The position numbers and the translations under genes are program-made. A DNA stretch of 64,000 nucleotides from Albibacterium bauzanense (GTDB taxonomy: Bacteria > Bacteroidota > Bacteroidia > Sphingobacteriales > Sphingobacteriaceae): contig NZ_SMGO01000001.1 in assembly GCF_004339765.1 (NCBI RefSeq), positions 1,240,001 to 1,304,000 on the forward strand, given 5' to 3'. This document shows, piece after piece, positions 20,981 to 51,974 of this stretch. Numbering within the stretch: position 1 is the first letter of the stretch; every line of letters begins with the position of its first letter. The notes beneath the pieces were generated by a model that saw only the letters and a program-made list of their open reading frames with translations, had not been told where the DNA came from and made no database searches.

Positions 20981-21008
20981 GCGCCTAATATACTAAATCT
21001 GATTTACT

Positions 21009-28000: not shown

Positions 28001-28636
28001 ACTTAGTGTCTGTGTATCTTCTTCAAGCTGGACCTGCAAAGTAGTTTGGCTCGAAACGGAAACTTCTTTGGTAATAAATCCAATATAAGAAAAGACTAGC
28101 GTACCGTTCTCAGGTGTTTCAATTGAAAAATTGCCATCAATATCCGTCGTGACACCTGTACTAGTTCCTTGCAGTCTGATGCTTACTCCTATTAAAGGTT
28201 CTCCTTGCACATCGCTTACCTTTCCTCGTACAATAATATCTTGCACTACAACACCTTGTGGAGAAATGATAACTACCAACCCATCACCAAATACACGATA
28301 ATTAAGATCTGTTTCTTTCAATATTTCAGAAAGGGCATCCAATACAGGCATATCTTTACTTACTAAAGATACATCCTTCTTAGGCAGGAATTCTTCACTA
28401 TATAATAATCTGATATCACCTCTCTGTTCAAGCACAGATAAGGCTTTCTTTAAACTAGTTGACTTTAAATTTAAGTCTACACGAGCGGTTTGAGGATAAC
28501 TAACCGCATAAACCTGCGTACAGAGCAGAAAGGTTAGAATCAAACTCCAATTAAACATTATTAAGGCACGTTTTAAAAATGGATGAAATAATGGGTCCTT
28601 GGGAAGAACTTTTTTGTAGAGTTCTTTCTTTTTCAT
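25085..28636 (-). CDS. SusC/RagA-family TonB-dependent transporter with STN signalling domain
   Basis: The outer-membrane pore partner of SusD. The start is taken at the ATG at 28636 (MKKKELYKK); a TTG 15 bases upstream is less likely. The 1183 residues hold a long signal region, an STN domain (about 50-115, LNLKSTSLKKALSVLEQRGD), a carboxypeptidase-regulatory beta-sandwich (VRGKVSDVQGEPLIGVSIRL), the plug with SusC motif GFGSFGSSDPLYIVDGVPSS and AANGVIIITTKKGKEGK, and a barrel ending RQILFGINFGF. The STN domain is what anti-sigma FecR proteins contact, and a FecR/sigma pair lies directly upstream, so substrate binding probably signals to transcription. Confidence 0.95.
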   Translation of the reverse strand: MKKKELYKKVLPKDPLFHPFLKRALIMFNWSLILTFLLCTQVYAVSYPQTARVDLNLKSTSLKKALSVLEQRGDIRLLYSEEFLPKKDVSLVSKDMPVLDALSEILKETDLNYRVFGDGLVVIISPQGVVVQDIIVRGKVSDVQGEPLIGVSIRLQGTSTGVTTDIDGNFSIETPENGTLVFSYIGFITKEVSVSSQTTLQVQLEEDTQTLSEVVVTGYTTEQKKDIIGSVAVVNTEDMLSTPSGNVTNQLQGRASGVTVSSSGEPGNSGKVRIRGFGSFGSSDPLYIVDGVPSSVDDLNPNDIESVQVLKDAASASVYGARAANGVIIITTKKGKEGKSKITVNSYYATNYVSSNDFPELLSAQENGDLYWKSMTGAGWKVGDANWTHPQYGTGATPVIPEYILVNNNGPKIGGTVLEQYKTTNPALFSQLTDPNNYDFKTHQIVRSSNTNWFDEVFNPAPMQSYNIGASGGSDQGVYSLGLNVFSQGNTANAYSKFDRYTLRANTSYNVAENVRIGENIQVAYRKNKDNNNYVATAWTMHPLIPVWDEYGNPAGAAAPGLVGVASTGQNPVTEAWRDRFDLQTAYAIMGNAYLEADLIEGLTARTSFGIDYMNSTNRNLTQSTYEHAENRNPPNSLSFNYNNNNTWTWTNTLAYNKTIDKHTFKVLLGSEAIKSYFENSQASRQNFVIDDDPDFLVLSAGIGAQTNSGSFVRNSLFSLFSRVDYTYNDRYLFNATVRRDESSKFGTNSRVGYFPSAALGWRISSENFMKDISWLNDLKLRGSWGIIGNQTGLAYDNQYNVYSQNETNTYSISGANNSRATSFILSSVGNMDARWEKSTTTNIGFDATLFSNSLTIAVDLFNRKTSDLLVQNQAPLTGTSASQPSVNIGDMTNKGIDLGITKRGMIVDDFRYEVGLTFTKYKNMVDNILNNPAASLTGGNTRAGNATLTKSGYPISFFYGYQLDGFFNTQAEVDSYNEDNSTWLTPAVGRWKIKDINGDSKVDADDRTYLGSPHPDFQTGLNLSLNYKNFDFTGFVFWSQGGKVFNGARYNVDFNTFTYGRSKRMLYESWTPELGDNAKLPKLDLNDTYSSSNVTDYFLEDASFLRLKTLQLGYTFPKSIISKIKLDNLRIYVQGQNLLTISKSTLLDPDNSLSSGGDTSMGVVNNSVPTPRQILFGINFGF

Positions 28637-28698
28637 AATTTTAGGGTTCAAAGTTTAAAAATCTGTTATGGGCTTTCAATAGCCCTAATGGTCTTGGT

Positions 28699-28727: not shown

Positions 28728-29852
28728 TTAGTAAAGAGTTACGTCATCGTTTTGAATTTTAAAGTGAAAAGGTTTAATTAATTGCATCGCTGTAAGCACC
28801 TGGTCTATATTCTCTTTTGTTATTGTCCCAGTATACCTATATGTTTTTAATTTTATATCGGTTATTTCAATATCTAAATCATACCATCTTTCAAGCTTAG
28901 GAACAATTTCCTCTAATGTTTCATCTTTAAAAACTAATTTATTATCAATCCATGAAGTTTCTTGAATATATTCATGATTATCTACATTTACCTTAGAAAG
29001 ACTACCAATGGTCAATGTTATATTGTTTGCTAAAGTGATTTCACTATAGACAGAATCACTTATAATTCCTTGTTCGACTTCTTGAACTATTTTATTTTTC
29101 GTAACGGCTAGTTTCTCATTTGGTTTAAGCAAAAACTTCTCCTTAGGCCTCTCATTTACAACCAATTCAATTGAACCTCTCAAAAGCGTAGTTTCAGTTT
29201 TATTTTCCTCTGGATAAGCTTTTACATTAAAAGCCGTTCCTAATACTTTAATAGAGATATCTTTTGTTACTATATAAAATGGTCTGTTCACATCTTTAAC
29301 CACATCAAAAAAAGCCTCCCCTTCTAGATTCACAGAACGCATATCACTATCATTCATCAAATTATCATAAGAAAGTTTACTATCGGCATTCAGCCACACC
29401 TTGGTACCATCCGGTAGAACTAATTGCTTTCTCACTCCCTTTTGGGTCATAATTTCGATTCTATTAACAATGGCATTATCTTTTGCAGAAAACAAATCAG
29501 GATTCCATTTAAAAAGCAAGACCCCTAAAACGACAAAAAGCCCCACAGCAAAAGCATATTTAAAGTACATTGGGTTTCTGTTAGTCTCTTTATTTTCTTC
29601 ACTATCTACCAATTCACTTTTATTAAATTTCAGACGCTGGCCATATCTCAATCTATGTTCCTCATATTGGCTATCAATATCTACCTCTAATTTCATCGCA
29701 TCCTCTTCTTGCCAAATCTCTTTTAGATATTGTTCATAATAAACGATATCTGGATTTTTCTCAAAAAGACTCTTTAACTCCTCTAGCTCCTCTAAAGATA
29801 TCTCCTCCGCAATCTTTCGCGTCAATAATTCTAATACTCTTTTATCATTCAT
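28728..29852 (-). CDS. FecR-family anti-sigma factor
   Basis: A 374-residue transmembrane regulator. The cytoplasmic N-terminus (residues 1-~95) holds the sigma-binding region, one helix spans the membrane (YFKYAFAVGLFVVLGVLLF), and the periplasmic part has the FecR domain (about 130-230, VRKQLVLPDGTKVWLNADSK and GEAFFDVVKD) followed by the DUF4974 domain (about 300-374, FKDETLEEIVPKLERWYDLD). The DUF4974 end is the part thought to touch the STN domain of SusC. It lies 44 bp after the sigma-factor gene and 76 bp before the transporter stretch. Confidence 0.94.
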   Translation of the reverse strand: MNDKRVLELLTRKIAEEISLEELEELKSLFEKNPDIVYYEQYLKEIWQEEDAMKLEVDIDSQYEEHRLRYGQRLKFNKSELVDSEENKETNRNPMYFKYAFAVGLFVVLGVLLFKWNPDLFSAKDNAIVNRIEIMTQKGVRKQLVLPDGTKVWLNADSKLSYDNLMNDSDMRSVNLEGEAFFDVVKDVNRPFYIVTKDISIKVLGTAFNVKAYPEENKTETTLLRGSIELVVNERPKEKFLLKPNEKLAVTKNKIVQEVEQGIISDSVYSEITLANNITLTIGSLSKVNVDNHEYIQETSWIDNKLVFKDETLEEIVPKLERWYDLDIEITDIKLKTYRYTGTITKENIDQVLTAMQLIKPFHFKIQNDDVTLY

Positions 29853-29896: not shown

Positions 29897-30469
29897 CTAA
29901 TTATATTTAATATTAAATTCAGTTTTTAAAATAGCTGATAGTTTTCTGACAGCATTTACTAAATGAGCATCAACCGTCTTTGGCGATATATCAAGCATTT
30001 CAGCTACTTCCTTGTAAGAGAAACCTTCTTCTTTTATTAATTTAAAAACAAGTTTACATTGTTTGGGTAATGTTTTAATAGCAGTCTCCAGTTGTAGCTT
30101 TAACTCTCCTTGCAGAAGTATTAATTCAGGATTTGAATAATCTATATGAATATCTACATCAACCTCGTCAAGAGAAATTACTTGCTTTCCTGAATCTTTT
30201 TTAAGAATATTTAATGACTTATTCTTAGCAGCAGTAAAAGCATAATACTTTATGTTTTTTACTTCGCATAACTTTTCACGATTATACCATAGCATAAACA
30301 GAACATCACTAGCCACTTCTTCTGCTAACTCAGATGATTTAACGATACTAAAAGAAAAGTTTCTTATCGGATTAAACAAAGTCCTAAAAAGTGCTTTATA
30401 TGCACTCTCAGAATTTGTCATCGCCATTTCTTGAATCAGAGCAGCTAACTCCAACTGATTTTTAGGCAT
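29897..30469 (-). CDS. ECF RNA polymerase sigma-70 factor
   Basis: A 190-residue extracytoplasmic-function sigma factor of the Bacteroidota FecI-like group. Region 2 covers about residues 20-85 (ELAEEVASDVLFMLWYNREK), region 4 about 125-180 (KTLPKQCKLVFKLIKEEGFS and YKEVAEMLDISPKTVDAHLV). It is the first gene of the sigma, FecR, SusC, SusD series and presumably directs transcription of susCD when its anti-sigma is relieved. Confidence 0.94.
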   Translation of the reverse strand: MPKNQLELAALIQEMAMTNSESAYKALFRTLFNPIRNFSFSIVKSSELAEEVASDVLFMLWYNREKLCEVKNIKYYAFTAAKNKSLNILKKDSGKQVISLDEVDVDIHIDYSNPELILLQGELKLQLETAIKTLPKQCKLVFKLIKEEGFSYKEVAEMLDISPKTVDAHLVNAVRKLSAILKTEFNIKYN

Positions 30470-30490
30470 AATATTATAAATTGGTTATCT

Positions 30491-30498
30491 CAAATATA
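30491..30498 (-). promoter_or_regulatory. -7 promoter box for the ECF sigma gene
   Basis: The minus strand reads TATATTTG, a full TAnnTTTG match, 21 bases before the sigma-factor ATG. It would give a leader of about 15 nt. No clear TTTG is seen 19-21 nt further upstream. Confidence 0.45.
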
Positions 30499-30606
30499 GG
30501 ATTTTAGTTTATACGAAAGAATAAGCCTTAACTTTGAATATGATACCCTCAAATTCAACTCGAATACGTCACACTGTACTTTTTAAACTAAAATATAGAA
30601 ACTAAA

Positions 30607-30637
30607 ACTTCGTACAACAAGTATGGTTGAACGAAGT
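30607..30637 (-). terminator. Intrinsic terminator after the GH5 gene
   Basis: ACTTCGT (30607-30613) pairs with ACGAAGT (30631-30637); an inner CAAC/GTTG adds 4 bp after one A/A mismatch. In the leftward transcript the stem is followed by TTTAGTTTCTATATTTTAG, a T-rich tail. It would separate the dehydrogenase/GH5 cluster from the sigma-susCD unit. Confidence 0.6.
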
Positions 30638-30685
30638 CGAGGATTTCGTGGAAATCAATTACATTGTGATGCAATAATTGATATA

Positions 30686-31744
30686 TTATTTATTGGCATC
30701 AAAGTTTCGCAAAACTGTGCGAATATAATCTCCAGCAGGCGTAAGATTTGAAGTATTCCAACCACCATTTACAGGAGCTCCGGGCTTTAACAGTGCAGTT
30801 GTTTCTTCTTTATCTGTAATATTCCAATTCACCCAACTCAATTTATGCTTCTCCATCCAACGAACCCACCTATCTGTTTTTTCCAAATTAAATTCACCAT
30901 CACCATTTGATTCACCAACTCCCCATTCTGTAATAAACAATGGCAATCCCAATCCGATAGCTATCTCGGCTTTCTCTCTTAACTTTTCTTGATGCCCAGG
31001 GTCACTTGCATAAAAGTGAAATGAATAAACTAAATTATCAGACAAATTTATGGGGTCTTTTGCTGTAACATCTACATCCTGATCCCAGTGCGGACTACCG
31101 ACAACAATAAGGTTTCTCTTATCATAAGTTCTGATAGCTGATATAATTTTTTCCGAATACGCTTTTATTTCCGGCCATGTTTGTCGCTCTGGTTCATTCC
31201 ATATCTCATAAATTACATTGGGGACGTGCTGATATCGTTTTGACATCTCTTGAAAAAAAGCTGCAGATTCCGTTTGATTTTTATTTGCATTATGGTCGTG
31301 CCAATCAATTATCACATAAACACCTCTCTCAATTCCCTGATCAATTAAGCTAATTATTTTTTCTTCTTGTTTTTTAGGGCTTTGCAAATAGCCACCATCA
31401 GGTTCTATTGCCATTGAAAGACGGATTAAATCGACTTTAAAATCATCTACCAGCCAATCTACTACCTCTTTATTATAATATTTCTCTCCCTCCCATATAC
31501 TCCAGGAAAAACTTATTCCCCGAAGTTGAGGTTGAAAACCATGTTGATCTACCATTTTTCCATTCTGTACTGATAAGTAGCCATGGCGCTCAACTGAGGT
31601 CTGTTTTGCTGATGCCTTTCCTTCCAGATCCCCATTATTATGTGACTTTGATTGTGAACCTTGCATTTTATGATCAGCAGATCTAGCTTTAGTAAAACTA
31701 AAAGAGACGAAAATTAAGAAGAGGAATATTAATAATCTTTTCAT
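30686..31744 (-). CDS. Glycoside hydrolase family 5 endoglucanase
   Basis: A 352-residue secreted cellulase-type hydrolase. A signal peptide ends near residue 20-23, and a low-complexity Ser/Lys/Asn/Gly linker runs to about 50. The catalytic (beta/alpha)8 barrel starts at HGYLSVQNGKMVDQHGFQPQ and LRGISFSW. The acid/base is Glu184 in VIYEIWNEPE and the nucleophile Glu273 in LFITEWGVGE. The pattern fits subfamily GH5_2 (beta-1,4-glucanases). It is the last gene before a terminator, 37 bp after the rhamnose isomerase gene, and would cut beta-glucan chains at the cell surface or in the periplasm. Confidence 0.92.
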   Translation of the reverse strand: MKRLLIFLFLIFVSFSFTKARSADHKMQGSQSKSHNNGDLEGKASAKQTSVERHGYLSVQNGKMVDQHGFQPQLRGISFSWSIWEGEKYYNKEVVDWLVDDFKVDLIRLSMAIEPDGGYLQSPKKQEEKIISLIDQGIERGVYVIIDWHDHNANKNQTESAAFFQEMSKRYQHVPNVIYEIWNEPERQTWPEIKAYSEKIISAIRTYDKRNLIVVGSPHWDQDVDVTAKDPINLSDNLVYSFHFYASDPGHQEKLREKAEIAIGLGLPLFITEWGVGESNGDGEFNLEKTDRWVRWMEKHKLSWVNWNITDKEETTALLKPGAPVNGGWNTSNLTPAGDYIRTVLRNFDANK

Positions 31745-31781
31745 ACGAATAATTAAATAACAGAATTTTTTATTTTGAAAA

Positions 31782-33056
31782 CTACAATCCAGTTGCTATG
31801 GTTTTTGATCCTCTTTCTTTAATCAATTGGTTACGCACACCAATCTCACGAAATAATTTCAACGGACTCAACGCACCTCCCGATCTAAACCTTGCTTCAG
31901 CAACCAATGCTCGTACGTCTGTCCGAAAAGCATTTTGTAATATTTCTTGTGCGCTTGTTACATCATTACTTAATTGTGCTTCTTTCAATGCGGCTCTATC
32001 TATTAATAATGCTTGCGCATAAGCAATCATTATAGCTTCAACCGACTGAAGAATATCTTCTAAAGGATCCTTTAAATTATGGGATGCATCAATCATCCAT
32101 CCCAAACCTGAAGCATGATTCATATTACGTTCATCCATCCCATCAATCAACTCATTAAATATTAAAAAAAGCTGATATGGTTTAATACTACCAGTAGTAA
32201 GATCATCATCGCCATATTTCGAATCATTAAAATGAAAACCACCAAGTTTGCCTTCCATCAATAAAAGCGAAACAATTTGTTCAATATTAGCATTCGGCAA
32301 ATGGTGACCAAGATCTACCAAAGTATATGCCTTTGGTCCCAACTTACTTGTAAACAACAATGACTGTCCCCAGTCTCCAACAGTTGTTGAATAGAAATTC
32401 GGCTCATAAGCCTTATATTCAACAAACATTTTCCAATCATCCGGCAATGCCGCATAGATCTCTCTCAAACTTTCCAACGTATTCTGAAAGGCCTTTCGAA
32501 AATTTAACTGCCCTGGAAAACATGAACCATCAGCCAACCAAACTGTTAATGATTTAGAACCTAACTCTATACCATGTTTTATTACTTCAATATTATGTTC
32601 TATCGCTTGTTTCCTTACAGCTTTATTTACATGTTGTAATGAACCGAATTTATAGCTCTCAACCTGCTCCTCTTGATCCTGAAAAGTATTAGAATTCATG
32701 GCATCAAAACGTAAACCATATTCAGCCGCTAAGTTTTTAATGGCCCGATAATCTTTCGGCACGTCCCAGGGAATATGTAATGAAATAGCCCCACTCGAGC
32801 AGTTCAATTTATGAAGCAGTCCTACATCTTCAATCTTCTCCTCTAAATTCCGAGGTTCTCCTCCTCCTGGAAAACGGCCAAATCGAGTTCCACCACTACC
32901 CAATGCCCAACTTGGTATTGCAATCTGAAAATTAATTAATTTAGAAATAATGGATTCGCTTTCAGGAATTAATTTACTTAAAAAATCAAATCTGACTTTA
33001 TGTGATCCTTTTAATAGATTATTGTGATCATTAATCTCATTCTCTCTTAGTTTCAT
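31782..33056 (-). CDS. rhaI: L-rhamnose isomerase, RhaI type
   Basis: A 424-residue TIM-barrel sugar isomerase that converts L-rhamnose to L-rhamnulose. The sequence resembles the Pseudomonas stutzeri-type enzyme, not E. coli RhaA: IAIPSWALGSGGTRFGRFPG near residue 50, then metal-site regions with FVEYKAYEPNFYSTTVGDWG, YTLVDLGHHLPNANIEQIV and GGFHFNDSKYGDDDL. It has no signal peptide. It follows the RhaT-type symporter gene by 26 bp. The rhamnulose kinase and aldolase genes that usually complete the pathway are not in the window. Confidence 0.92.
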   Translation of the reverse strand: MKLRENEINDHNNLLKGSHKVRFDFLSKLIPESESIISKLINFQIAIPSWALGSGGTRFGRFPGGGEPRNLEEKIEDVGLLHKLNCSSGAISLHIPWDVPKDYRAIKNLAAEYGLRFDAMNSNTFQDQEEQVESYKFGSLQHVNKAVRKQAIEHNIEVIKHGIELGSKSLTVWLADGSCFPGQLNFRKAFQNTLESLREIYAALPDDWKMFVEYKAYEPNFYSTTVGDWGQSLLFTSKLGPKAYTLVDLGHHLPNANIEQIVSLLLMEGKLGGFHFNDSKYGDDDLTTGSIKPYQLFLIFNELIDGMDERNMNHASGLGWMIDASHNLKDPLEDILQSVEAIMIAYAQALLIDRAALKEAQLSNDVTSAQEILQNAFRTDVRALVAEARFRSGGALSPLKLFREIGVRNQLIKERGSKTIATGL

Positions 33057-33082
33057 CTGATTTATTTTATAAGTGAAGTTTA

Positions 33083-34156
33083 TTATAAACTTTTCGAAAA
33101 ACCTACTATTATCACTGATATCACAATTAAGGCTATCCCACCAATAATAGTTGCATAAGTCTTTCTACTTACCCCTTTCCATTCCTTCAGTAGAACTCCC
33201 CATAAATTTGCTATTAGAATAATGAAAGCCATATGCAAAATCCAAGAACTAGCTCCATTACCCATCTTGCTTTCCCCCATCCCATAAAAAAAGAATTGCA
33301 AATACCAGGTAGTGCCAGCGAGGGCACATAACAAATAATTAATAGTTAAAGGGTTCTTAGTGTTTATATAGTCTTTAAAGGTTTTATTTTTCAAATTGAG
33401 AATAAAACACCATAAAAAATTGGTTGTCAAACCACCCCATAATAGAACGACATAAGTAACATTGTTCTGAAACAGAAACTCGCCTTTTGTCATATCTCCT
33501 GCTTTCCAAAGATCATTCGCCACATTAGCCATCGGCTTACCTGCTTCTATTCCAAAGTTAAAACAAGCACTTAAAACTCCAGCGATGATAGCAACCAATA
33601 ACCCTAATCCGAATTTATATTCATCATTAACGCTTTCCTTCTTTCCTTTATCTAGCTCTCTTTCTTTAAGCACAGCTGCTTTTCCACAAAGAACAATTCC
33701 CATTATACAAATCGCCAAACCGCAAAGCATAATAATTCCCCATCTGGAATTAAGATAGAGCTCAAAAGCTTCTTTCCCTTCAGCCGGGTTAAATTGATAA
33801 TAGATAGAAGGAATTAAAGAGCCAAAAACCATGGTAAGGCCCAACATAATACTACTGCCTAAACCTACTCCCAAATACCTGACACCAAGCCCATAGGTTA
33901 ATCCTCCAATCCCCCATAAGAGCCCAAACATATATGTAAAGGCTAATGTCGACGTATCCGATTGCTTTATTATATCAATAAAATCGGGTATAGTAAGCCA
34001 TGCTGCAATTGGCGGAACTATTAACCATGAAAAAAGTCCACCTATAATCCACAAGCTTTCCCAAGCCCAGCCTTTAACCTTTTTATAAGGCACATAAAAA
34101 CTACCAGAGGCTACACCTCCAATAAAATGAAAAAATACACCCGCGAGTAATTGCAT
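33083..34156 (-). CDS. rhaT: L-rhamnose/H+ symporter, RhaT family
   Basis: A 357-residue inner-membrane protein with about ten hydrophobic helices. The beginning (GVFFHFIGGVASGSFYVPYK) and the segment GLLWGIGGLTYGLGVRYLGV are characteristic of RhaT. The adjacent rhamnose isomerase supports L-rhamnose as the transported sugar. It lies 33 bp after the gene for the large haem-binding dehydrogenase-like protein, so rhamnose import is co-transcribed with the oxidative genes. Confidence 0.92.
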   Translation of the reverse strand: MQLLAGVFFHFIGGVASGSFYVPYKKVKGWAWESLWIIGGLFSWLIVPPIAAWLTIPDFIDIIKQSDTSTLAFTYMFGLLWGIGGLTYGLGVRYLGVGLGSSIMLGLTMVFGSLIPSIYYQFNPAEGKEAFELYLNSRWGIIMLCGLAICIMGIVLCGKAAVLKERELDKGKKESVNDEYKFGLGLLVAIIAGVLSACFNFGIEAGKPMANVANDLWKAGDMTKGEFLFQNNVTYVVLLWGGLTTNFLWCFILNLKNKTFKDYINTKNPLTINYLLCALAGTTWYLQFFFYGMGESKMGNGASSWILHMAFIILIANLWGVLLKEWKGVSRKTYATIIGGIALIVISVIIVGFSKSL

Positions 34157-34189
34157 AATGAGAACTTAATTTAACTCGATTATTCACAA

Positions 34190-37100
34190 CTATTTACTCT
34201 TCAAAGAAGAAAGATATTCGAGTAAATCAGCAAATTCTTGGTTAGTAAACGTTTGCGCCATCTCTGGCATTAATGATCCAGGCAATTTTTTAATCTCTTT
34301 CACATCACTGGTCTTAATCTTCTGAGTTGCCCCACCCGAATATTTAATTTCTATATCAGTCTCTGTCCTGCTGGAAATAATTCCAACCAAGATTGATCCA
34401 TCTTTCATCTCTATCTGCCAGCCTTCGTAACCAAAACTAACTCCAGATGATGGATGAACTATTGCATCATAAAGTCCTTGTTTAGGTAATTTAGATCCAA
34501 TCTCGGATAAAGCCGGACCAAAATCTAAACCAGCACCGTTCACTTGATGGCATACAAAACAGGCTCTGCTAAATACAGCTTGTCCGTTGACAGAATTCCC
34601 CGTTAAGGCAAGTAATTGATCAAGACTTACTGAACTATTGCTCGTCGATTCTGTTGTTGATACCCCAGGCAAGAATGTTTTCGCTTCTTCATATAATCCT
34701 GGAGTACGGCTTCCACTTAAACCAGCAACAGCCGATGATATTAAATCTGCCGGCAATTTACTACTCTTAAGTAATTCCATTACACGCGATTGCCCAACAC
34801 GACTTTTACCAATCATTTCTACCGCTTTATTGCGAACAGTCATACTGTAGGATTCAGATAACGCTACTTGCGATAATATTTCAACCGACTCAGTATTACC
34901 AACCATTCCAAGCGCCTCCAGAACATTTAACGAACCTTCTGTTTCATTAACACTAACAGCATTTTTCAGATCCTGCCCTTTCTCTAATTGAAATAATAGC
35001 CTCGCAGCATTAACACCTACAGGCGTATCTCCATTACTCACAACCATATTCAAAACCTGTGCATTTTCTGTAGTAATCTCGTATTGTCTCAATAAATTAA
35101 GATACTCTTGAGTACCTACAGATGTCTTTAAAACATCTTTAATGGCATTCTTGGCAATTTCAGAATTAGCTACATCCTTAACAGTCAATAACCGTAAAAC
35201 CAATGCACTAAGATTAACATCTTTACCATTATTTTCCTCTAAAAGCGCCAGCAACGTTTTAACTTTCTCCTCACCAGGAATAAAATCAAAAGCACGGAAA
35301 TACCTTAAACGTGACTTTAAAGGAACATTAGCATCAATAGCAAGTTTCTTAAGAAAAGGAAGGGTACTGTTAGTACGTGCACGCCACACAATATCTCTTC
35401 CAGCTGCAGTTGTTAAAGGATTTTTAACTTCCTTTAAATATGCAGAAAAATAACTATCCCATTGTCCATCTGCTCCAATACCTAACGCTTCCAGATACCA
35501 TCTATCGTTACCATTATGCTGCATTGCAAGAGTTGCCCATAAACCAGGAGCGTCAGCTAATTTGCTATGTCTAAGTGCTATAGCACTCTCTCTTCTTACT
35601 TGAGGATCCTGATCTTTTACTAATAACTTAACATACATAGTAATATCAATATCTAATTGACGAGCGGCCCTTAAGCCTGTTATTCTCAAATCAGGATTAC
35701 GGTCTTTAATTGCCTCAGCTATATATTTCTCTCCATTTGGAGTTTTAGATAATATCCATAAAGCCCTTGCACGCATACGAGGATCAGGAGCTGATTTCCA
35801 TTGTTTCTCTAAGGCTGAAATTGCTTTACTTCCCATTGCCTGTAAGGCAAGAAAGGCATGACGACGAATAGCATTATTCGGATTTTGCAAAGCAATAAGG
35901 GCACCTTCCGGCGTAGTATAATCCTGCGTAGGAACTGTATATTTATCCTTTAAAGCACTTGGAGCAATACGATAAATCCGACCGCGCTGCAAATCCCCTA
36001 CTTGATGCCCACCTACTCCCGGATCATACCAATCTGCAATAATTAACGATCCATCAGGAGCGACACTTACATCTGATGGACGAAACCATTGATCGTCATC
36101 TCCAGTTAAGATATTTAAAACCTCTGCACTATAACCAGCTCCGTTCTTTTTAACAGGATACGAACGAATAACATTATGACCCGGCTCAGCATGGATCATC
36201 TGACCTTGAAATTGCTTAGGCAATAAAGATCCTTCATAGATCACCATACCGGTTGGAGATCCTGAACCCGTGTATAAGAGATTAGGTATTACACCTGGAT
36301 CATTTTGATGCCAATGTCTGACAGGAATTGAATCTTCAATATTTATGCGGTTAGCTCCCCAAGCTGCACCTGTCATCTCATCTTTAAACCCGAAGTTACC
36401 AAACTCCATAACATAATTAATCCTAACGGCTTTATTCCCATCATCATCATTATCACTCTGCCATACAGTACCATAACTATCTACCGCAGGTTCATATGGA
36501 TTCCTGAAATTATATCCCATAACTTCAACATTAGAACCATCCGGATCAGAGCGGAATACCATACCATCTGTATATTTATCCGGGCCAATTTCATCTCCAT
36601 CTTGATCTAATACTACGTTGTTGTTTTTATCTTTTAGTGTTGTTCCTGAATTACCAAAATTAAAGTACAACTTACCATCCGGACCAAAAATAAACGAGTG
36701 CATCCCATGATCGTGCTGATCGCCACCTATTCCCTGAAATAATATCTCCTTCCGGTCCGCTTTACCGTCATTATTATCATCAAAAAAAGCCCATACATAA
36801 GGGCTTTGCGATACAAGTACCCTATCTCCTAATACAGTAATACCTAATGGAGCATTAATCTCTGGTCCTTGATAAAATACGGTGCTTGTTTCAAGCACAC
36901 CATCACCATCTTTATCTTCTAATATCAAAATCCTATCTCCTTCAGGCCGCGCTTTATTTCCGTTTATCTCAAATCTGTAATTATAAGCTTCAGTAACCCA
37001 AACCCGGCCTCTTTCATCAACGTCAATATTAGTAGGATTAATAAGCATCGGTTCAGAAGCCATAAGCTTCACATCTAATCCGGGTAAAATCTTAAGTCCC

Positions 37101-37291
37101 CGTACTGCATTTTCAGGCAAACGTTTTTGGGCTTCTGTTAATAAACTATCAGCAAAGAGCTCTGTATGATCGCTTTCTTTACTGGATGCTGTTGTACAAG
37201 CTTTCAAAAACAACCCTACCGGGAGCAATACCACAGCAATTTTAGCCAATAATAAATATCTTCTTTTGTTGATTTTCATCTTCTTATTCAT
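34190..37291 (-). CDS. Large haem-binding beta-propeller dehydrogenase-like lipoprotein with HEAT repeats
   Basis: A 1033-residue protein of the kind named for Planctomycetes/Verrucomicrobia (membrane-bound dehydrogenase plus haem-binding domain). A lipobox (GLFLKAC) gives a lipid Cys near residue 32. A beta-propeller with NHL/sorbosone-dehydrogenase features covers about 60-430 (DVDERGRVWVTEAYNYRF; LLYTGSGSPTGMVIYEG; SLIIADWYDPGVGG). HEAT-type helical repeats follow to about 880 (ALIALQNPNNAIRRHAFLAL). A c-type haem site CFVCH is at 911-915, then a domain with HPSSGVSFGYEGWQIEMKDG. The substrate is unknown; an envelope sugar dehydrogenase is the likely role. Confidence 0.85.
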   Translation of the reverse strand: MNKKMKINKRRYLLLAKIAVVLLPVGLFLKACTTASSKESDHTELFADSLLTEAQKRLPENAVRGLKILPGLDVKLMASEPMLINPTNIDVDERGRVWVTEAYNYRFEINGNKARPEGDRILILEDKDGDGVLETSTVFYQGPEINAPLGITVLGDRVLVSQSPYVWAFFDDNNDGKADRKEILFQGIGGDQHDHGMHSFIFGPDGKLYFNFGNSGTTLKDKNNNVVLDQDGDEIGPDKYTDGMVFRSDPDGSNVEVMGYNFRNPYEPAVDSYGTVWQSDNDDDGNKAVRINYVMEFGNFGFKDEMTGAAWGANRINIEDSIPVRHWHQNDPGVIPNLLYTGSGSPTGMVIYEGSLLPKQFQGQMIHAEPGHNVIRSYPVKKNGAGYSAEVLNILTGDDDQWFRPSDVSVAPDGSLIIADWYDPGVGGHQVGDLQRGRIYRIAPSALKDKYTVPTQDYTTPEGALIALQNPNNAIRRHAFLALQAMGSKAISALEKQWKSAPDPRMRARALWILSKTPNGEKYIAEAIKDRNPDLRITGLRAARQLDIDITMYVKLLVKDQDPQVRRESAIALRHSKLADAPGLWATLAMQHNGNDRWYLEALGIGADGQWDSYFSAYLKEVKNPLTTAAGRDIVWRARTNSTLPFLKKLAIDANVPLKSRLRYFRAFDFIPGEEKVKTLLALLEENNGKDVNLSALVLRLLTVKDVANSEIAKNAIKDVLKTSVGTQEYLNLLRQYEITTENAQVLNMVVSNGDTPVGVNAARLLFQLEKGQDLKNAVSVNETEGSLNVLEALGMVGNTESVEILSQVALSESYSMTVRNKAVEMIGKSRVGQSRVMELLKSSKLPADLISSAVAGLSGSRTPGLYEEAKTFLPGVSTTESTSNSSVSLDQLLALTGNSVNGQAVFSRACFVCHQVNGAGLDFGPALSEIGSKLPKQGLYDAIVHPSSGVSFGYEGWQIEMKDGSILVGIISSRTETDIEIKYSGGATQKIKTSDVKEIKKLPGSLMPEMAQTFTNQEFADLLEYLSSLKSK

Positions 37292-37330
37292 TTTATGATA
37301 ATCACTAGATGCGCAATAAACGCAACCTAT

Positions 37331-38449
37331 TTAACGGAATAACAATGGGGCAAAGTCAGCAACATATCTGCGCCATACCATAAAGGTATGTCCACCAGGT
37401 GTCTCAACATCTGTAAAATTCACGTCTTTAGACTTCAGCCACTTTTTAAAATTTCTATTGGTCTCTAACAGAAAATCAGAGGTGCCGATACCAATCCAAA
37501 ATAGCTTTAGTTGAGAGTTTACTGAAGAATTTAAATTAGGGAAAGTCTTCTCATAAGCATCAGCAGGATTAGGTGCTGGCTGACCTTGAACAGGTCTGGC
37601 ACCATACATAACAGCACTACTAAAACCTCCTATCCATGCAAACTTATCTACATTGCTTAATCCTGCATATATTGCTGTTCCACCACCCATAGATAATCCG
37701 GCAATTGCACGTTGATTACGATCTTTTGATGCATGATAGGTCTTTTCAATCTGAGGAATAACTTCTTGTAAAAGAGCAGCAGTATATTTTTCATTTCCTC
37801 CATAGCCCAATGTATTAACCATAATCATTGGCTTAGCTTTCCCTTGGGTAATAAGATTATCCAATGTAATATTTGCCTGTCCGTTTACAGTCCATGAAAG
37901 TGCATTTCCTCCGGCGCCATGAAGTAAATATAAAACCGGATAAGGCTCTGCTCTATTAGGATCATAATTAGGAGGAAGATATACATAATAGTCTCTGCTA
38001 TCTCCAATAATTCCTGATTTATAGAAATGATGATTTACTGAACCATGTGCAATATTATCATTCATTTCCCAAGGAAGAGAAGCCGGTCCGGGAACATGAA
38101 GCAGGCTTTGTGTAGAGTTTTGATAGCTAGGTTTCGCTACCGGATTAGATGGATCAGGAATAACTAAACCATCTAAAACAAAAGAATAATCGTAAATATC
38201 TGGATCCAGTTGCTTTGTAGCACTCCACACTCCATTTGCATCCTTTTGCATAGTTTCTTTTGATATCCCCTCAATATCAACAATTACCTGCTCTGCATTG
38301 GGTGCTCGTAAACGAAAAGTAACCAGACCACCTTCTTTCACTTCTGGCGACTTAACAGAAGGCTGCATCACCGGAATTGTATTAACAGGTGTTTGAGCAT
38401 TAACACTCGTCAATAAAAAACAAAAAATAATTAGTAATAATCGATTCAT
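37331..38449 (-). CDS. Secreted esterase, CE1/esterase D type, with N-terminal E-set domain
   Basis: A 372-residue secreted alpha/beta hydrolase. The signal peptide ends near residue 18 (SVNAQ). An N-terminal immunoglobulin-like E-set/CBM48-type domain (about 30-120, VTFRLRAPNAEQVIVDIEG) precedes the esterase domain (about 140-372). The nucleophile is Ser253 in AIAGLSMGGG, the oxyanion region YLLHGAGG is at 174-181 and the likely catalytic His is in GGHTFMVWRRY. Such proteins remove feruloyl or acetyl groups from xylan and related glycans. It follows the DUF1080 gene by 18 bp. Confidence 0.88.
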   Translation of the reverse strand: MNRLLLIIFCFLLTSVNAQTPVNTIPVMQPSVKSPEVKEGGLVTFRLRAPNAEQVIVDIEGISKETMQKDANGVWSATKQLDPDIYDYSFVLDGLVIPDPSNPVAKPSYQNSTQSLLHVPGPASLPWEMNDNIAHGSVNHHFYKSGIIGDSRDYYVYLPPNYDPNRAEPYPVLYLLHGAGGNALSWTVNGQANITLDNLITQGKAKPMIMVNTLGYGGNEKYTAALLQEVIPQIEKTYHASKDRNQRAIAGLSMGGGTAIYAGLSNVDKFAWIGGFSSAVMYGARPVQGQPAPNPADAYEKTFPNLNSSVNSQLKLFWIGIGTSDFLLETNRNFKKWLKSKDVNFTDVETPGGHTFMVWRRYVADFAPLLFR

Positions 38450-38467
38450 AATTTATGGTTTTATATT

Positions 38468-39160
38468 CTAAGGTAATTCTTTTATTGCAATATTTCTATA
38501 CCGATGCATAGCACCTGGTTGCCATGAGCCCAAGCCATTCCAATCACCCGCAGCAGAGGAAAACAAAGCGGTCCAGTGAGATTGCAAACCAATCATTCCC
38601 TCTGTTACACCAGCAATAAAGTCATTCTTTGGCTGTGTAACATCCCACATTTGAACTCCATTAATCCAAAGTGTAATATGGGGTATTTCTCCTTCCATCC
38701 GAATCCTAAAAGAATTCCAGTCATTTTCTTTCCATACTTTTTCTCGCCCTTCTGTTTTCGCTTGCTTACTGATCGGCATTCGTTCACTCAATAAATTACC
38801 CGTACTTCCAACCGATTCATCAAACTCAACTTGATAGGCAACTCCGCTTTCTGAAGAACGGATAAAGATGCCTCCATTTGAAAATGAATCTATTTTGGCT
38901 TCTAAATAAAGATCAAAGTTCTTATACTTCTTATCTGTTAAGAGAATACCACCTTGTCCATAAGGGTTCTGCGAAACAACAATCATCCCATCTTCAGCTC
39001 TAAAATTAGGTGTGGTTCCTTGATGTGTAGTGCGACTAATATGCCACCCTTTAAGATTTTTACCATTAAAAATAGGTTTAAAGCCGGCAGGTATCTGTGC
39101 ACTTGCAAAACTGGTAATCATTAAAAGCAGAGCTATATTTAATATGTATTTGAAACTCAT
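38468..39160 (-). CDS. DUF1080 (3-keto-disaccharide hydrolase) family protein
   Basis: A 230-residue secreted protein with a signal peptide ending near residue 21 (SFASAQ). The jelly-roll DUF1080 domain fills the rest, with FKPIFNGKNLKGWHISR at the start, GGIFIRSSESGVAYQVEFDE in the middle and WNSFRIRMEGEIPHITLWIN late. Characterised members of the family act on 3-keto-glycosides by lyase or hydrolase chemistry. It lies between the esterase and FGE-fold genes with gaps of 18 and 23 bp. It is one of two DUF1080 proteins in the cluster. Confidence 0.87.
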   Translation of the reverse strand: MSFKYILNIALLLMITSFASAQIPAGFKPIFNGKNLKGWHISRTTHQGTTPNFRAEDGMIVVSQNPYGQGGILLTDKKYKNFDLYLEAKIDSFSNGGIFIRSSESGVAYQVEFDESVGSTGNLLSERMPISKQAKTEGREKVWKENDWNSFRIRMEGEIPHITLWINGVQMWDVTQPKNDFIAGVTEGMIGLQSHWTALFSSAAGDWNGLGSWQPGAMHRYRNIAIKELP

Positions 39161-39183
39161 AATTATCTTAAATTAATTCCTTA

Positions 39184-39996
39184 TTAATTACTCTCCATCA
39201 CGATACGCAATCCAATATCATACCCATTGCCCCGACCGGCAGCATGCGTCATATACGTTGCATTCTTCACATCGCCAACAAAAGATGCACCCTTTAAAAC
39301 ATGCTCTTTTCCTGATTTAGGAGGAACCGGATCTGCAAATATCCTTTCATTATAATAATCCTGAGTCCACTCCCATACATTTCCTAACATATCATACAAG
39401 CCCCAAGCATTAGGCTTCTTTTGCCCAACCGCAATTGGATTTACACCTCCTAACACAGCAGAAGCTCTAATCTCTGTCCAGGGAATATCATCTACTGCTC
39501 CTGCCCGAGCCGCATATTCCCATTCAAATTCTGTTGGGATACGGTACTTATGAGCTTTATCTAATTTATTTAACTTCTTGACAAAAGCCTGCGCATCTTT
39601 CCAGCTTATATTATCTACAGGGTGATTATCTGTACTTTCAGCTACTTTATCTCCTTGAAAAATTGAAGGATTATTCCCCATTACTTTTATCCACTGCTCT
39701 TGAGTAACTTCAAATTTGCCAATATAGTAGGGTTGATCTATAGTAACTTTGAAACCCGACATATAGGCTTCCTTAGCCATTTTCTCTGCCAGCTCATATG
39801 CAGAAGCAGGAAGTGCGCTTCTCCCTCCCGGCTTTCCAACCGTTGGTTCAAACTTACCGACAGTCATTGATCCTGGTTTAATTAACACGAATTCCATGCC
39901 TATACTATTCGTATAAGTATCTTGTGCACTCACGATACCAGAAAGAAATACCAATAAAAATACGGGTAAAAGCTTTCCTATCATTTTATTAATCAT
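39184..39996 (-). CDS. FGE-sulfatase-fold (SUMF1-like) protein lacking all cysteines
   Basis: A 270-residue secreted protein (signal ending IVSAQ near residue 24) with the formylglycine-generating-enzyme fold: NSIGMEFVLIKPGSMTVGKF, YYIGKFEVTQEQWIKVMGNN, PVDNISWKDAQAFVKKLNK, YRIPTEFEWEYAARAG and AWGLYDMLGNVWEWTQDYY. True FGE needs two cysteines near its C-terminus to bind copper; here the region is LKGASFVGDVKNATYMTHAA and the whole protein has no cysteine. No sulfatase gene is in the window. It is more likely a binding or accessory protein of the dehydrogenase cluster. Confidence 0.85.
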   Translation of the reverse strand: MINKMIGKLLPVFLLVFLSGIVSAQDTYTNSIGMEFVLIKPGSMTVGKFEPTVGKPGGRSALPASAYELAEKMAKEAYMSGFKVTIDQPYYIGKFEVTQEQWIKVMGNNPSIFQGDKVAESTDNHPVDNISWKDAQAFVKKLNKLDKAHKYRIPTEFEWEYAARAGAVDDIPWTEIRASAVLGGVNPIAVGQKKPNAWGLYDMLGNVWEWTQDYYNERIFADPVPPKSGKEHVLKGASFVGDVKNATYMTHAAGRGNGYDIGLRIVMESN

Positions 39997-40033
39997 CTTT
40001 ATTTATTTAGGTTTATTAATTATAACCATTCAA

Positions 40034-42328
40034 TTATTTACCTATAAAATTATTATTCTCCGCTCTTCCAAGCTTCATAATTTCGAGGGTTCTTAATGTC
40101 ATACCTCCACGAGGCACTCCTGTTATAGCACGAACTTCCTTCACTTCTTCAGGCGTAACAACTGATGCATTATTACCCAGATCGCCGCTATTACGTACAT
40201 AACTCAATACTGCAGCAATCCATTCATCATCCTGTGCAGCCATAGATGGCATTGCATCTGCATATTCTTTCCCATCCACTGGTCCGGTCAATCCACTTAA
40301 TAGTAGTTGAATCGTTAATATTTTATCTCCTTTTAAGCGTGGAGAACCCGCCAATGGAGGAGCAGGCATATCTGAACTGCCCGCAACTGTAATACCTCTA
40401 CCTTTGGGGCCATGGCAAGAAGCACATAATTGGTTATAAATAGTTGCACCCTTCAATACTAAAGCCCTATGCTCGGGACTCAAATTCTTAACTCTTGCAA
40501 GCTCTTCTTCCAGCGCCCTTTGTTTATCTAAAAATGTTTTATAAGACACCTGCATCAATTCATTATCAGGATTAGCTGCCAGCAATTCTGACACAGTTTG
40601 TTGAGCCGTCTCCGTTTTATTTGTTCTCAATGTTAAAAATAATTGAATGCGTACATCTGCACTGGTATCATTTTTTAAGGATGCTAATTTATCGATCACT
40701 TCCGCATCATTCTTTTTAACATACATCTCACTGATCCAGATTGCTGCCTTTCTAACCTGAGGGTCAGCATCTTCCATTGCACTGTATAGCGTTCCTTTAT
40801 CAATCGCATTCATGCCCTCCAATGTCCACAATGCATGAATACGCGCTAAATTACTAGGTTTAGATTTCAAACCGCCTTGCTCTCCCAAGGCTATTTTCTT
40901 TAAATCCGGAACAGCAGATTGATCATTTAAAACAATAAGTTGCTTTTGAGCATTATCACGCCACCATCCGTTTGGATGATCCAGATAAGTAACCAGCTTC
41001 GCTGCCGATTCATTCAACATATTTGGCTTAGTTGTGTCCCTCTCAAAATCATCATGAACAACCCGGTATATCCGCCCCATTCCTTTATTCTTATCTAAAC
41101 CTTTTTCAGCAATTACCTTTCCCAAATATGAATCAGGGCCTGTCCATTCACTTTCCTGGATAATTCCATGATACATATCCACAATATACATTGTTCCATC
41201 CGGAGCGGTATAGGTATTTAAAGGTCTGAAATTCATGTCAGCAGAAGCTAACCAATCCTTTTCCTTATAAACATCTTCAATGATTATCTTTCCATCTTTA
41301 TTTAGAACCTTACCACGCTTAATAATCCTTCCCACCATTTCAGGAATAAAATAATCACCCTGCATATCAGCAGGAAGGCGATCTCCCCTAAATATTGATT
41401 GTCCGGCACCCGATGTAAATCTATTCAACGTATTATCTTCCGGACGAAGAGCCTTCTCTCCTCCTTGCGCATCCAGGTTACCAATAATTGGCCAGGGTAT
41501 CGTGAAATCAACCGTATACTGATCGATAAAATTCAAGGCACCATAAGCCGGCATTTGTTGAATCTGCACAGCAGGCAAGCCCGGCCCTGCCTCTGAATAA
41601 AATAAGCGGCCATAATTATCACTGGTAATCCCCCACTGTCCGATCATGTTATCCACTAAGGTATCAGCAACCAAAACTCCGTCTTTATATTTATAGCGTA
41701 AATTATCCCTTGTAGGATAGATCCAATTATCCATATTCCAGATAAGCCCACCATTTTGATGCTCCAGATTTCTTGAATCTACCGCATCATTTCGGAAAAC
41801 CATTTTCTTGGTATCTGCTACGCCATCACCATCTGTATCCCCATAGCTCCATATATGTTGAACATTAGTTTCCTGAACTAATAATTGATCTCCAATTGTA
41901 AGAATAGCGCGAGGCAACACAAGACTATCAATGTATACAGTAGATTTATCCATCACACCATCTCCATCTGTATCTTCTAAAAGCTTGATCTTACTAACCG
42001 GTTCATATTGGCCAGTACCACTGGCATCAAGCATATAAGTATTCATTTCAGCAACAAACATCCTTCCATTGCCATCCCACGTAAGAGCTACAGGCTCTTG
42101 GATCATGGGCTCACTGGCAACCAATTCAAGATGATATCCCGGCGGCAATTGAACTTTCTCCATACTCTCTTCCGGAGATAAAGGTTTAACAGGAGGGTCG
42201 GTGTCAACTACAACCCTTACAAAATCATCATCGTTAGAAGGGTTTTTTGATTCGTTACAGGCAGACACAAATAGTGCAACTAGTACAGCACTAACAACCC
42301 AACTGCCATATAATAGATTTCTTCTCAT
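40034..42328 (-). CDS. Haem-binding beta-propeller dehydrogenase-like lipoprotein with C-terminal cytochrome c
   Basis: A 764-residue relative of the 1033-residue protein downstream. A lipobox (VALFVSAC) marks a lipid Cys near residue 24. The propeller (about 50-420) has VALTWDGNGRMFVAEMNTYM, LLEDTDGDGVMDKSTVYIDS and NTYTAPDGTMYIVDMYHG. A short HEAT-like region (about 440-600) follows, then a cytochrome c domain with CASCH at 635-639 and a later methionine segment DAMPSM that could give the axial ligand. It is the first gene of the main cluster and likely oxidises a sugar or polyol in the periplasm. Confidence 0.86.
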   Translation of the reverse strand: MRRNLLYGSWVVSAVLVALFVSACNESKNPSNDDDFVRVVVDTDPPVKPLSPEESMEKVQLPPGYHLELVASEPMIQEPVALTWDGNGRMFVAEMNTYMLDASGTGQYEPVSKIKLLEDTDGDGVMDKSTVYIDSLVLPRAILTIGDQLLVQETNVQHIWSYGDTDGDGVADTKKMVFRNDAVDSRNLEHQNGGLIWNMDNWIYPTRDNLRYKYKDGVLVADTLVDNMIGQWGITSDNYGRLFYSEAGPGLPAVQIQQMPAYGALNFIDQYTVDFTIPWPIIGNLDAQGGEKALRPEDNTLNRFTSGAGQSIFRGDRLPADMQGDYFIPEMVGRIIKRGKVLNKDGKIIIEDVYKEKDWLASADMNFRPLNTYTAPDGTMYIVDMYHGIIQESEWTGPDSYLGKVIAEKGLDKNKGMGRIYRVVHDDFERDTTKPNMLNESAAKLVTYLDHPNGWWRDNAQKQLIVLNDQSAVPDLKKIALGEQGGLKSKPSNLARIHALWTLEGMNAIDKGTLYSAMEDADPQVRKAAIWISEMYVKKNDAEVIDKLASLKNDTSADVRIQLFLTLRTNKTETAQQTVSELLAANPDNELMQVSYKTFLDKQRALEEELARVKNLSPEHRALVLKGATIYNQLCASCHGPKGRGITVAGSSDMPAPPLAGSPRLKGDKILTIQLLLSGLTGPVDGKEYADAMPSMAAQDDEWIAAVLSYVRNSGDLGNNASVVTPEEVKEVRAITGVPRGGMTLRTLEIMKLGRAENNNFIGK

Positions 42329-42354
42329 AATAAATGAAATTTAAACCACTCACT

Positions 42355-42362
42355 CAAATATA
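42355..42362 (-). promoter_or_regulatory. -7 promoter box for the oxidative gene cluster
   Basis: The minus strand reads TATATTTG, a full TAnnTTTG match, 26 bases before the ATG of the first dehydrogenase-like gene. Four bases further upstream on the same strand is ATTAATCTAAA (42377-42367), the core found twice at the haem-operon promoter. Confidence 0.5.
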
Positions 42363-42403
42363 TGATTTTAGATTAATACCTTATCTATCATTGCTTTATA
42401 AAG

Positions 42404-42513
42404 AACAGTGGTCAAACAGTGGTTGAACAGTGGTTGAACAGTCCTCAAGCAGTGGTAAAAGGACTGTACATCCACAGTTCAACTACTGTTTAATTATAGT
42501 TTAATTACAGTAT
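42404..42513. repeat. Ten-unit, 11-bp tandem repeat array
   Basis: The 110 bp divide exactly into ten 11-mers. The first five are AACAGTGGTCA, AACAGTGGTTG, AACAGTGGTTG, AACAGTCCTCA and AGCAGTGGTAA. The last five keep the 11-base phase but carry the core mostly inverted: AAGGACTGTAC, ATCCACAGTTC, AACTACTGTTT, AATTATAGTTT, AATTACAGTAT. CAGTCC (42439-42444) and GGACTG (42461-42466) form an inverted pair at the turning point. The array sits 42 bp upstream of the -7 box of the oxidative cluster, in the 273-bp gap after the second DUF1080 gene. An 11-bp period places each unit on one face of the helix. Confidence 0.85.
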
Positions 42514-42601
42514 GGTATATACGTGTTTATACTAATAGATAAATGACAGCAGTCAGTTCTAGTAATTAAAGGGAAAGAAAAGTAAAGGTGTTTTAGAAAC
42601 C

Positions 42602-43321
42602 TTATAAAGGACGGATCTTAATATTTCTCCATTGGCTAGAGCCAGGATGTTGTTGCAAGGCAATTTTTCCTTTGGCAACTTTAGCAAAGTTCGCGAACTC
42701 CTTGGCATTAAATTTACTATTTGCTACCAATTTATTCCATTCATCGCTTCCTATTTGCCCATCAAAGGTTTGTATGCCATTCAACCAAAAGGTCAGGTGT
42801 CCTTTATTCTGTAAGATTCTTACTTGATTCCATTCACCAACTGGTTTTGGTTTCGACACTTCAGGGCCTCCAACCATATCGTATAAGGAACCGGCAAGTC
42901 GGCTTTCTTTTTTATTATCTGCAGCATCGATGTTATCCAACACTTGCATTTCAGGGCCCGTTAAATAGGTGTTTTTAAATTCCGGTTTTTCTTGTATGTC
43001 AAAAATAATTCCGCTATTTCCTCCTTTAGAAATTTTCCATTCTAAACGAAAATCGAAATTCTCATATTCATCGTTGGTAACAATGTCACCTCCTCCTTCT
43101 TCTGGTCCATTTGGATCAAAAGTTAGTACTCCATCTTTCACTTGCCATCTAGAACCCACGGTATCTTTCAAGTAGGTATGCCAGCCGTTAGTTGTTTCAC
43201 CATCGAATAATAGCTTCCAACCTTCTTTCTTTTCTGCGTCAGTAAGCGTGTTTGGTTTTTGTGCTATTGCCACACTGCTTAGCATAGCAAATACTGTAAA
43301 AGCGATCAGAATTCTTTTCAT
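42602..43321 (-). CDS. DUF1080 (3-keto-disaccharide hydrolase) family protein
   Basis: A 239-residue secreted protein; the signal peptide ends near residue 20 (SVAIAQ). The DUF1080 jelly roll shows WKLLFDGETTNGWHTYLKDT, FDFRLEWKISKGGNSGIIFD and GHLTFWLNGIQTFDGQIG, ending ALQQHPGSSQWRNIKIRPL. It is a clear paralogue of the 230-residue protein at 38468-39160 but is only distantly similar. The 11-bp repeat array separates it from the rest of the cluster, so it has its own transcript. Confidence 0.88.
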   Translation of the reverse strand: MKRILIAFTVFAMLSSVAIAQKPNTLTDAEKKEGWKLLFDGETTNGWHTYLKDTVGSRWQVKDGVLTFDPNGPEEGGGDIVTNDEYENFDFRLEWKISKGGNSGIIFDIQEKPEFKNTYLTGPEMQVLDNIDAADNKKESRLAGSLYDMVGGPEVSKPKPVGEWNQVRILQNKGHLTFWLNGIQTFDGQIGSDEWNKLVANSKFNAKEFANFAKVAKGKIALQQHPGSSQWRNIKIRPL

Positions 43322-45982: not shown

Positions 45983-46000
45983 TAATTAATCTAAATAAAT
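45983..46000. promoter_or_regulatory. Putative iron-regulator site, copy 2
   Basis: This is an exact second copy of the 18-mer at 45943-45960, offset by 40 bp (about four helical turns). Its last two bases are the first two bases of the receptor start codon, so a bound protein would cover the transcription or translation start. Confidence 0.5.
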
Positions 46001-48068: not shown

Positions 48069-48105
48069 TAACACAATTATATAAATCAACAATTAATAAA
48101 AACAC

Positions 48106-49206: not shown

Positions 49207-49227
49207 TTAATTAAGAAAAAAACAATC

Positions 49228-50091: not shown

Positions 50092-50101
50092 TATACAATA
50101 C

Positions 50102-51148: not shown

Positions 51149-51168
51149 AATATTAAAGAACATTGAAA

Positions 51169-51969: not shown

Positions 51970-51974
51970 AAATT

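Follow-up and report, generated by a model that had tools for sequence, protein, structure and literature searches.

A haem-propeller, FGE-fold and DUF1080 trio within a candidate oxidative glycan-utilisation locus of Albibacterium bauzanense

What would oxidise the substrate of a DUF1080 enzyme in a gene block that encodes no Gfo/Idh/MocA oxidoreductase, the partner such enzymes have in the Bacteroides scheme? The question is raised by nine genes of Albibacterium bauzanense (30686-43321), lying in a window of 64,000 nucleotides (contig NZ_SMGO01000001.1 of assembly GCF_004339765.1, positions 1,240,001 to 1,304,000; all coordinates not assigned to another contig are those of the window). Besides two secreted DUF1080 proteins, the block encodes two haem-bearing propeller lipoproteins, a protein with the fold of formylglycine-generating enzyme (FGE), an esterase, a GH5 protein and the rhamnose proteins RhaT and RhaI. 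We propose, as a nearly even call, that it belongs to a locus of polysaccharide-utilisation type that includes an oxidative branch, extending over about 24.5 kb from 43321 down to 18827.

A conserved trio at the head of the operon

The core unit is a trio of adjacent genes: a DUF7133 lipoprotein of small type, composed of a six-bladed propeller, a HEAT region and a cytochrome c domain (40034-42328; Pfam/NCBIfam), a secreted, cysteine-free FGE-fold protein (39184-39996; PF03781 120.8 bits) and a secreted DUF1080 protein, DUF1080b (38468-39160). Homologues of the small propeller fall into two tiers, eight of them sharing 65-74% identity with it and the others no more than 55%; the eight close orthologues and the window protein together make up a single clade of 9 with full support. 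In 7 of the 8 orthologous loci the three genes stand in the same order, propeller, Cys-free FGE-fold protein, DUF1080, and the hosts of the trio come from several families (Spirosoma, Ilyomonas, Ferruginibacter, Pontibacter, Pedobacter and one Chitinophagales bin). In these seven loci DUF1080 is the fixed neighbour, with no Gfo gene nearby. The initial annotation had suggested looking for the whole gene set in other genomes; as a conserved unit the nine genes had to be given up, the trio alone being what recurs.

Among 395 genomes sampled from the class, only this one was found to have the FGE-fold member of the trio, and none of 59 other genomes of close relatives contains a small propeller above 55% identity. 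They carry the paralogous type instead, often linked to ThuA: in this tier, 22 of 72 loci have a ThuA gene immediately upstream, sometimes with Gfo genes alongside. ThuA and ThuB are part of a 3-keto-disaccharide pathway, and the propeller family at large is often found beside 3-keto-glycoside genes.

The window's FGE-fold protein is entirely free of cysteine, as had been noticed at the outset, and its orthologues have cysteines only within their first 19 residues. With the catalytic cysteines absent, a formylglycine-generating enzyme was ruled out.

Both DUF1080 proteins score well above the gathering threshold of PF06439 (161.1 and 112.8 against 26.8 bits, the lower value being that of DUF1080b). 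The model predicted for DUF1080b matches BT3469 (4jqt, Z 17.1) and a 3-keto-glycoside eliminase/hydratase (9fbe, Z 16.3), as well as BT2157 and relatives, and we therefore predict that it has the fold of 3-keto-glycoside eliminase/hydratases.

All nine open reading frames (ORFs) are on the minus strand, and their coordinates and domains as first annotated were borne out by ORF and Pfam/NCBIfam checks. Eight of them, from 42328 down to 30686, are spaced by 37, 23, 18, 39, 33, 26 and 37 bp, so that the tight run described earlier stands, but with gaps of 18-39 bp and not 17-38 bp. The ninth had been counted into the same block. This first DUF1080 gene (DUF1080a, 42602-43321; a secreted protein of the DUF1080/3-keto-disaccharide hydrolase family, PF06439 161.1 bits) lies 273 bp away from the others and is divided from them by the stretch that probably carries the promoter of the eight-gene operon and that holds the motif CTAAAATCATATATTTGAG (42353-42371, minus strand; the exact pattern occurs twice in the genome). 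It is therefore a neighbour, not a demonstrated member of the transcript, and probably constitutes its own unit.

After the trio, the operon continues with a secreted CE1-type, feruloyl-esterase-like esterase (37331-38449; PF00756), which among solved proteins most resembles ferulic acid esterases (E 1e-56), and a second DUF7133 lipoprotein, of large type, with propeller, HEAT and CxxCH domains (34190-37291; Pfam/NCBIfam). Then come rhaT, rhaI and finally a secreted GH5 endoglucanase-like protein (30686-31744; PF00150), closest among solved structures to bacterial Cel5 endoglucanases (E 1e-84). An intrinsic terminator closes the operon on the same strand, as first proposed: the stretch 30602-30640 folds 4.2 standard deviations better than shuffled sequences (minimum free energy z -4.2) and the T-run TTTTAGTTT directly follows the hairpin. 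A consensus scan of the window missed it, and upstream of the block genes the housekeeping promoter pattern TTTG-N19-21-TAnnTTTG had no match. ORF and domain searches of the window revealed no Gfo/Idh/MocA gene in the block and, unlike in the Bacteroides pathway, no TIM-barrel hydratase there.

Haem propellers as candidate sugar oxidases

Both propeller proteins exceed the TIGR02604 cut-off of 122.2 bits (323.3 and 160.6 bits), and each contains one CxxCH motif (CFVCH and CASCH) and a lipobox-like signal. A phmmer search against solved structures matched them chiefly in their cytochrome parts. The predicted propeller model, in turn (predicted local distance difference test, pLDDT, 83), has as its best solved matches the pyrroloquinoline quinone (PQQ) sugar dehydrogenases, led by 3a9g (Z 23.9, root-mean-square deviation 3.0, 278 residues aligned), along with AA12 (6i1q, Z 23.2) and Asd (2g8s, Z 22.9).

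For the active site, PQQ-site residues were taken from PMC6881789. The profile of the small propeller was too weak on its own against E. coli Asd, and a multi-family alignment was used instead; three homologues whose matched region is interrupted by in-frame stops were left out of the larger alignments. The column of His144 of soluble glucose dehydrogenase (sGDH) holds a histidine in both window propellers, H190 in all 35 aligned small types, and the first arginine of the sGDH RxR motif is likewise kept (R368, 35/35). In the large propeller, R263-N264 additionally preserves the Arg-Asn pair that contacts the PQQ quinone in sGDH (Arg228-Asn229). By fold and residues, then, the propellers look like quinoprotein-type sugar dehydrogenases joined to a c-type haem, with PQQ as the presumed cofactor. 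The pairing of cytochrome-linked propeller dehydrogenases with DUF1080 proteins, as initially suggested, agrees with this predicted fold and with the conserved neighbourhood; oxidation at C3 does not follow from either, and we keep it by inference. We favour C3 because C1 is engaged in the glycosidic bond and because a DUF1080 partner fits C3 oxidation best. The oxidised position is the most doubtful step of the scheme, with C3 as the most likely choice.

Several observations weigh against this reading. At the position of the Arg-Asn pair of PQQ enzymes, the small propeller invariably has Gln231-Trp232. It may therefore use a cofactor other than PQQ, and we do not class the small type as a member of the PQQ six-bladed sugar dehydrogenases. 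The solved structural relatives of the propeller are C1 dehydrogenases; the fungal CcPDH, too, is thought to act at C1, and it does not oxidise L-rhamnose (PMC4332668). In DUF1080b, whose model is of medium confidence only (pLDDT 65.5), an insertion was seen by eye ahead of the conserved C-terminal RNI motif. Finally, in none of the other loci examined does the trio have the rhamnose, esterase, GH5 or large-propeller genes with it.

The propellers might instead be C1 aldose dehydrogenases, or alcohol dehydrogenases, of the sGDH/Asd/AA12 type, drawing energy from freed reducing sugars while the DUF1080 proteins are fed by GMC or Gfo/Idh/MocA enzymes encoded elsewhere. Apart from the structural matches themselves, being C1 sugar dehydrogenases or their relatives, the rest of the 3.08 Mb assembly offers such enzymes: 13 Gfo/Idh/MocA proteins over cut-off, all encoded outside the block and several beside DUF1080 genes, and two pairs of GMC and gluconate-2-dh3 genes (at 447 kb and 462 kb of contig C1), neither in the block. 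The reported lack of Gfo/Idh/MocA genes is thus true of the block but not of the genome. Nor can the propellers be said to replace these enzymes, as had been proposed: the genome is rich in them, in some cases next to other DUF1080 genes, and paralogous propellers elsewhere sometimes adjoin Gfo. Yet DUF1080 is the propeller's constant companion in seven loci that have no Gfo nearby, a C1 oxidase would have no obvious need for it, and glycosides have C1 blocked. We consider this explanation unlikely.

The association also shows at the scale of the genome, which totals 18 DUF1080 and 12 DUF7133 propeller matches: 8 of the 12 DUF7133 genes are within 5 kb of DUF1080 or Gfo genes, for a circular-shift mean of 0.92 (P 0.0016), so that in this genome they cluster with DUF1080/Gfo genes beyond chance. 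One paralogous propeller (8.7-11 kb of contig C2) shares its cluster with genes for Gfo/Idh/MocA, TIM-barrel and DUF1080 proteins, and for a xylose isomerase and a xylulokinase, the last two named from sequence reading. This cluster (L076, 2487-11735) includes a ThuA gene, adjoins a SusCD pair and looks like a pentose counterpart of the locus described here. At 247-253 kb of contig C3 (L083, 7129-12847), tandem haem propeller proteins of 931 and 918 residues are encoded with no DUF1080 or Gfo match near. At 757-765 kb of contig C2 (L084, 7203-14820), a SusC/SusD pair close to that of the window (1315 and 686 bits) adjoins another haem propeller and a Gfo-like (Oxidoreduct_C) protein.

A further point against oxidation comes from Lac161_ORF7, a protein of TIGR02604, HEAT_2 and cytochrome c parts that was reported as a lactose hydrolase: once purified, it freed glucose from lactose with a Km of 1.8 mM and a kcat of 13.2 per s (PMC5342196). 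Propeller-HEAT-cytochrome proteins might accordingly cleave glycosides themselves, their redox part being regulatory or incidental. In our model, however, the fold is nearest to quinoprotein dehydrogenases, with the catalytic histidine conserved and known glycosidases absent from the best structural matches, which makes self-cleavage highly improbable here. The lactose assay has not, to our knowledge, been repeated; what it recorded is either a different activity or, as we would suspect, one that merits re-testing for acceptor-dependent oxidation.

Rhamnose genes inside the operon

The operon encodes a RhaT-type L-rhamnose/proton symporter (33083-34156; NF010024 507.7 bits, cut-off 468) and an L-rhamnose isomerase of Pseudomonas stutzeri type (31782-33056; L-rhamnose isomerase family), and these are the only rhaT and rhaI of the genome. 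The 29 relatives examined all have rhaI placed between rhaEW and rhaB. Here rhaEW is directly followed by rhaB (578-582 kb of contig C2; L187, 10276-13771) and the usual rhaI slot is empty, a displacement confined to this genome within the set examined. Either this lineage relocated rhaI to the oxidative operon, or it first gained a second rhaI and then lost the original.

The window RhaI is 69-81% identical to the RhaI of most family members. It scores below the cut-off of TIGR02629 (493 against 646.75 bits), and its best solved relative is the L-rhamnose isomerase 2hcv (E 4e-136). Its function is likely unchanged, given this relative and its orthologues between rhaEW and rhaB in 29 relatives.

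These genes could be hitch-hikers with no functional link to the oxidative operon: elsewhere the trio occurs without rhamnose genes, and displaced rhaI is restricted to a single genome of the set. Against this, they are sole copies set in the operon with gaps of 26-37 bp, and with the usual slot empty rhamnose growth is tied to expression of the operon. We judge passive co-residence improbable; rhamnose use depends on the oxidative operon. The tie between rhamnose uptake and the locus, proposed in the initial annotation, has gained from the finding that RhaT and RhaI are encoded nowhere else: it is better supported than before, but particular to this genome.

The adjoining operon, the proposed pathway and known systems

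Beyond the terminator, the minus strand continues with a sigma operon. It opens with an extracytoplasmic function (ECF) sigma factor of Bacteroidota type (29897-30469; TIGR02985 131 bits, over cut-off) and a FecR-like anti-sigma factor (28728-29852; FecR similarity, below the model cut-off), followed by a SusC/RagA outer-membrane transporter (25085-28651; TIGR04056 859 bits) and a SusD-like lipoprotein (23261-25054; PF07980). Its next member is a PQQ quinohaemoprotein dehydrogenase with an internal cytochrome c domain, similar to glucose/quinate dehydrogenases (21009-23171; PF01011 624 bits), and after this unit comes a TonB-dependent receptor (18827-20923) closest, by its best solved relatives, to the PQQ importer PqqU/YncD.

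The two operons are preceded by a shared motif, CTAAAATCNTATATTTGAG, whose exact pattern occurs just upstream of each and nowhere else in 3.08 Mb. The second copy, CTAAAATCCTATATTTGAG (30489-30507, minus strand), is identical to the first at 18 of 19 positions, a level reached in none of 400 controls, and the next best genomic sites have three mismatches; since the motif was defined from its own two sites, this rarity speaks for their likeness and not for a function. The copy ahead of the propeller operon contains TAnnTTTG, which we take to be a -7-like box. The motif may be a target of the ECF sigma factor, and the propeller operon and the sigma operon are probably co-regulated.

The quinohaemoprotein carries HHDIWD and CASCH motifs and scores under the cut-off of TIGR03074 (469 bits). 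Beside it, the TonB receptor has E. coli YncD/PqqU as best solved relatives (E 4e-30, the next protein following at 5e-6); NF041535 is by far its best model, at 163.7 bits yet under the cut-off of 1200. PqqU is marked by Y/F/W99, R304 and R365 (PMC12124388). To the points raised against our reading must be added that, in a low-identity pairwise alignment, the receptor has F at position 99 but T and I at 304 and 365. With the signature partly matched, PQQ uptake is only a lead. The pair at 18827-23171 hints at possible PQQ scavenging in a Sphingobacteriaceae-type genome; a search for PqqC, of PQQ biosynthesis, gave no match, its control being silent as well. On the other side of the block, at 45999-53000, reading of the sequence alone suggests genes for a TonB receptor, a HmuY-like lipoprotein and ABC-type uptake of haem/cobalamin, which would place haem supply near a block of haem enzymes.

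We propose the following pathway for the locus. Under control of the sigma/FecR pair, SusC and SusD would import oligosaccharides or glycosides to the periplasm, where the esterase and the GH5 enzyme would trim them. The propeller-HEAT-cytochrome lipoproteins, facing the periplasm, would oxidise a sugar hydroxyl and pass the electrons through their fused c-type haem to the respiratory chain. The oxidised product, most likely a 3-keto-glycoside, would then be split at its glycosidic bond by a DUF1080 partner through elimination and hydration, the known mode of DUF1080 enzymes, with the cysteine-free FGE-fold protein as a fixed accessory of the propeller/DUF1080 pair. Freed L-rhamnose would enter through RhaT and be isomerised by RhaI, with RhaB and RhaEW, whose genes lie elsewhere, completing its use. 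The parts that we infer are the cofactor PQQ, C3 as the oxidised position, the sequence of reactions and the substrate.

Such a scheme has a precedent in LacABC, whose oxidase is a GMC flavoprotein. LacABC and a periplasmic DUF1080 protein, a putative 3'-ketolactose hydrolase, are important for the growth of Caulobacter crescentus on lactose, and the two also occur together in Bacteroidota, with LacABC-like genes in Pedobacter and Indibacter (PMC9007349). In both systems a membrane-bound dehydrogenase would oxidise the glycoside in the periplasm alongside a DUF1080 protein; the oxidase has three components there, whereas here it would be a DUF7133 propeller fused to a c-type cytochrome and accompanied by the FGE-fold protein. 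The locus is thus consistent with the respiratory variant of the alternative pathway first proposed, but the concept had already been described (PMC9007349). With respiratory C3 oxidation next to DUF1080 known from LacABC, the propeller-HEAT-cytochrome c oxidase would be what is new.

With the alternative glycan pathway of Bacteroides thetaiotaomicron (BT2157-type) our scheme shares the action of DUF1080 on 3-keto-glycosides, while the Gfo/Idh/MocA enzyme and TIM-barrel hydratase of that pathway are missing from this block. The propeller resembles sGDH, Asd/YliI and AA12 in its predicted fold, its catalytic histidine and one binding arginine, and CcPDH also has a cytochrome domain, but of b-type. 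It differs from sGDH, Asd and AA12 in sequence (13-19% identity), in its HEAT linker and c-type cytochrome, in the Gln-Trp that replaces Arg-Asn in the small type, and in the proposed oxidation at C3 in place of C1. The domain order propeller-HEAT-CxxCH is that of the PVC-type haem-binding proteins (TIGR02604/TIGR02603, including Lac161_ORF7), which have no agreed function, lactose cleavage being the only reported activity that we found. As for rhamnose, the RhaI is that of the canonical rhaEW-rhaI-rhaB operon, but here rhaI sits with rhaT in the oxidative operon.

In the literature searched, a quinoprotein-like haem propeller acting as the oxidase of a conserved trio was not described. A more general claim, which we hold to be doubtful, is that DUF7133 propeller-HEAT-cytochrome c lipoproteins form a third class of glycoside 3-dehydrogenase, beside the NAD-linked Gfo/Idh/MocA and FAD-linked GMC enzymes; they would couple C3 oxidation to respiration and hand the product to a dedicated DUF1080 lyase, the FGE-fold protein being a new accessory. 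Propeller-HEAT-haem proteins are numerous in this genome, with 12 of DUF7133, and in several relatives, and they have no established function in the same literature. Through the compact, conserved trio, the role of these propellers becomes directly testable, as does the way in which Bacteroidota strip sugars from compounds that are poor targets for ordinary glycosidases.

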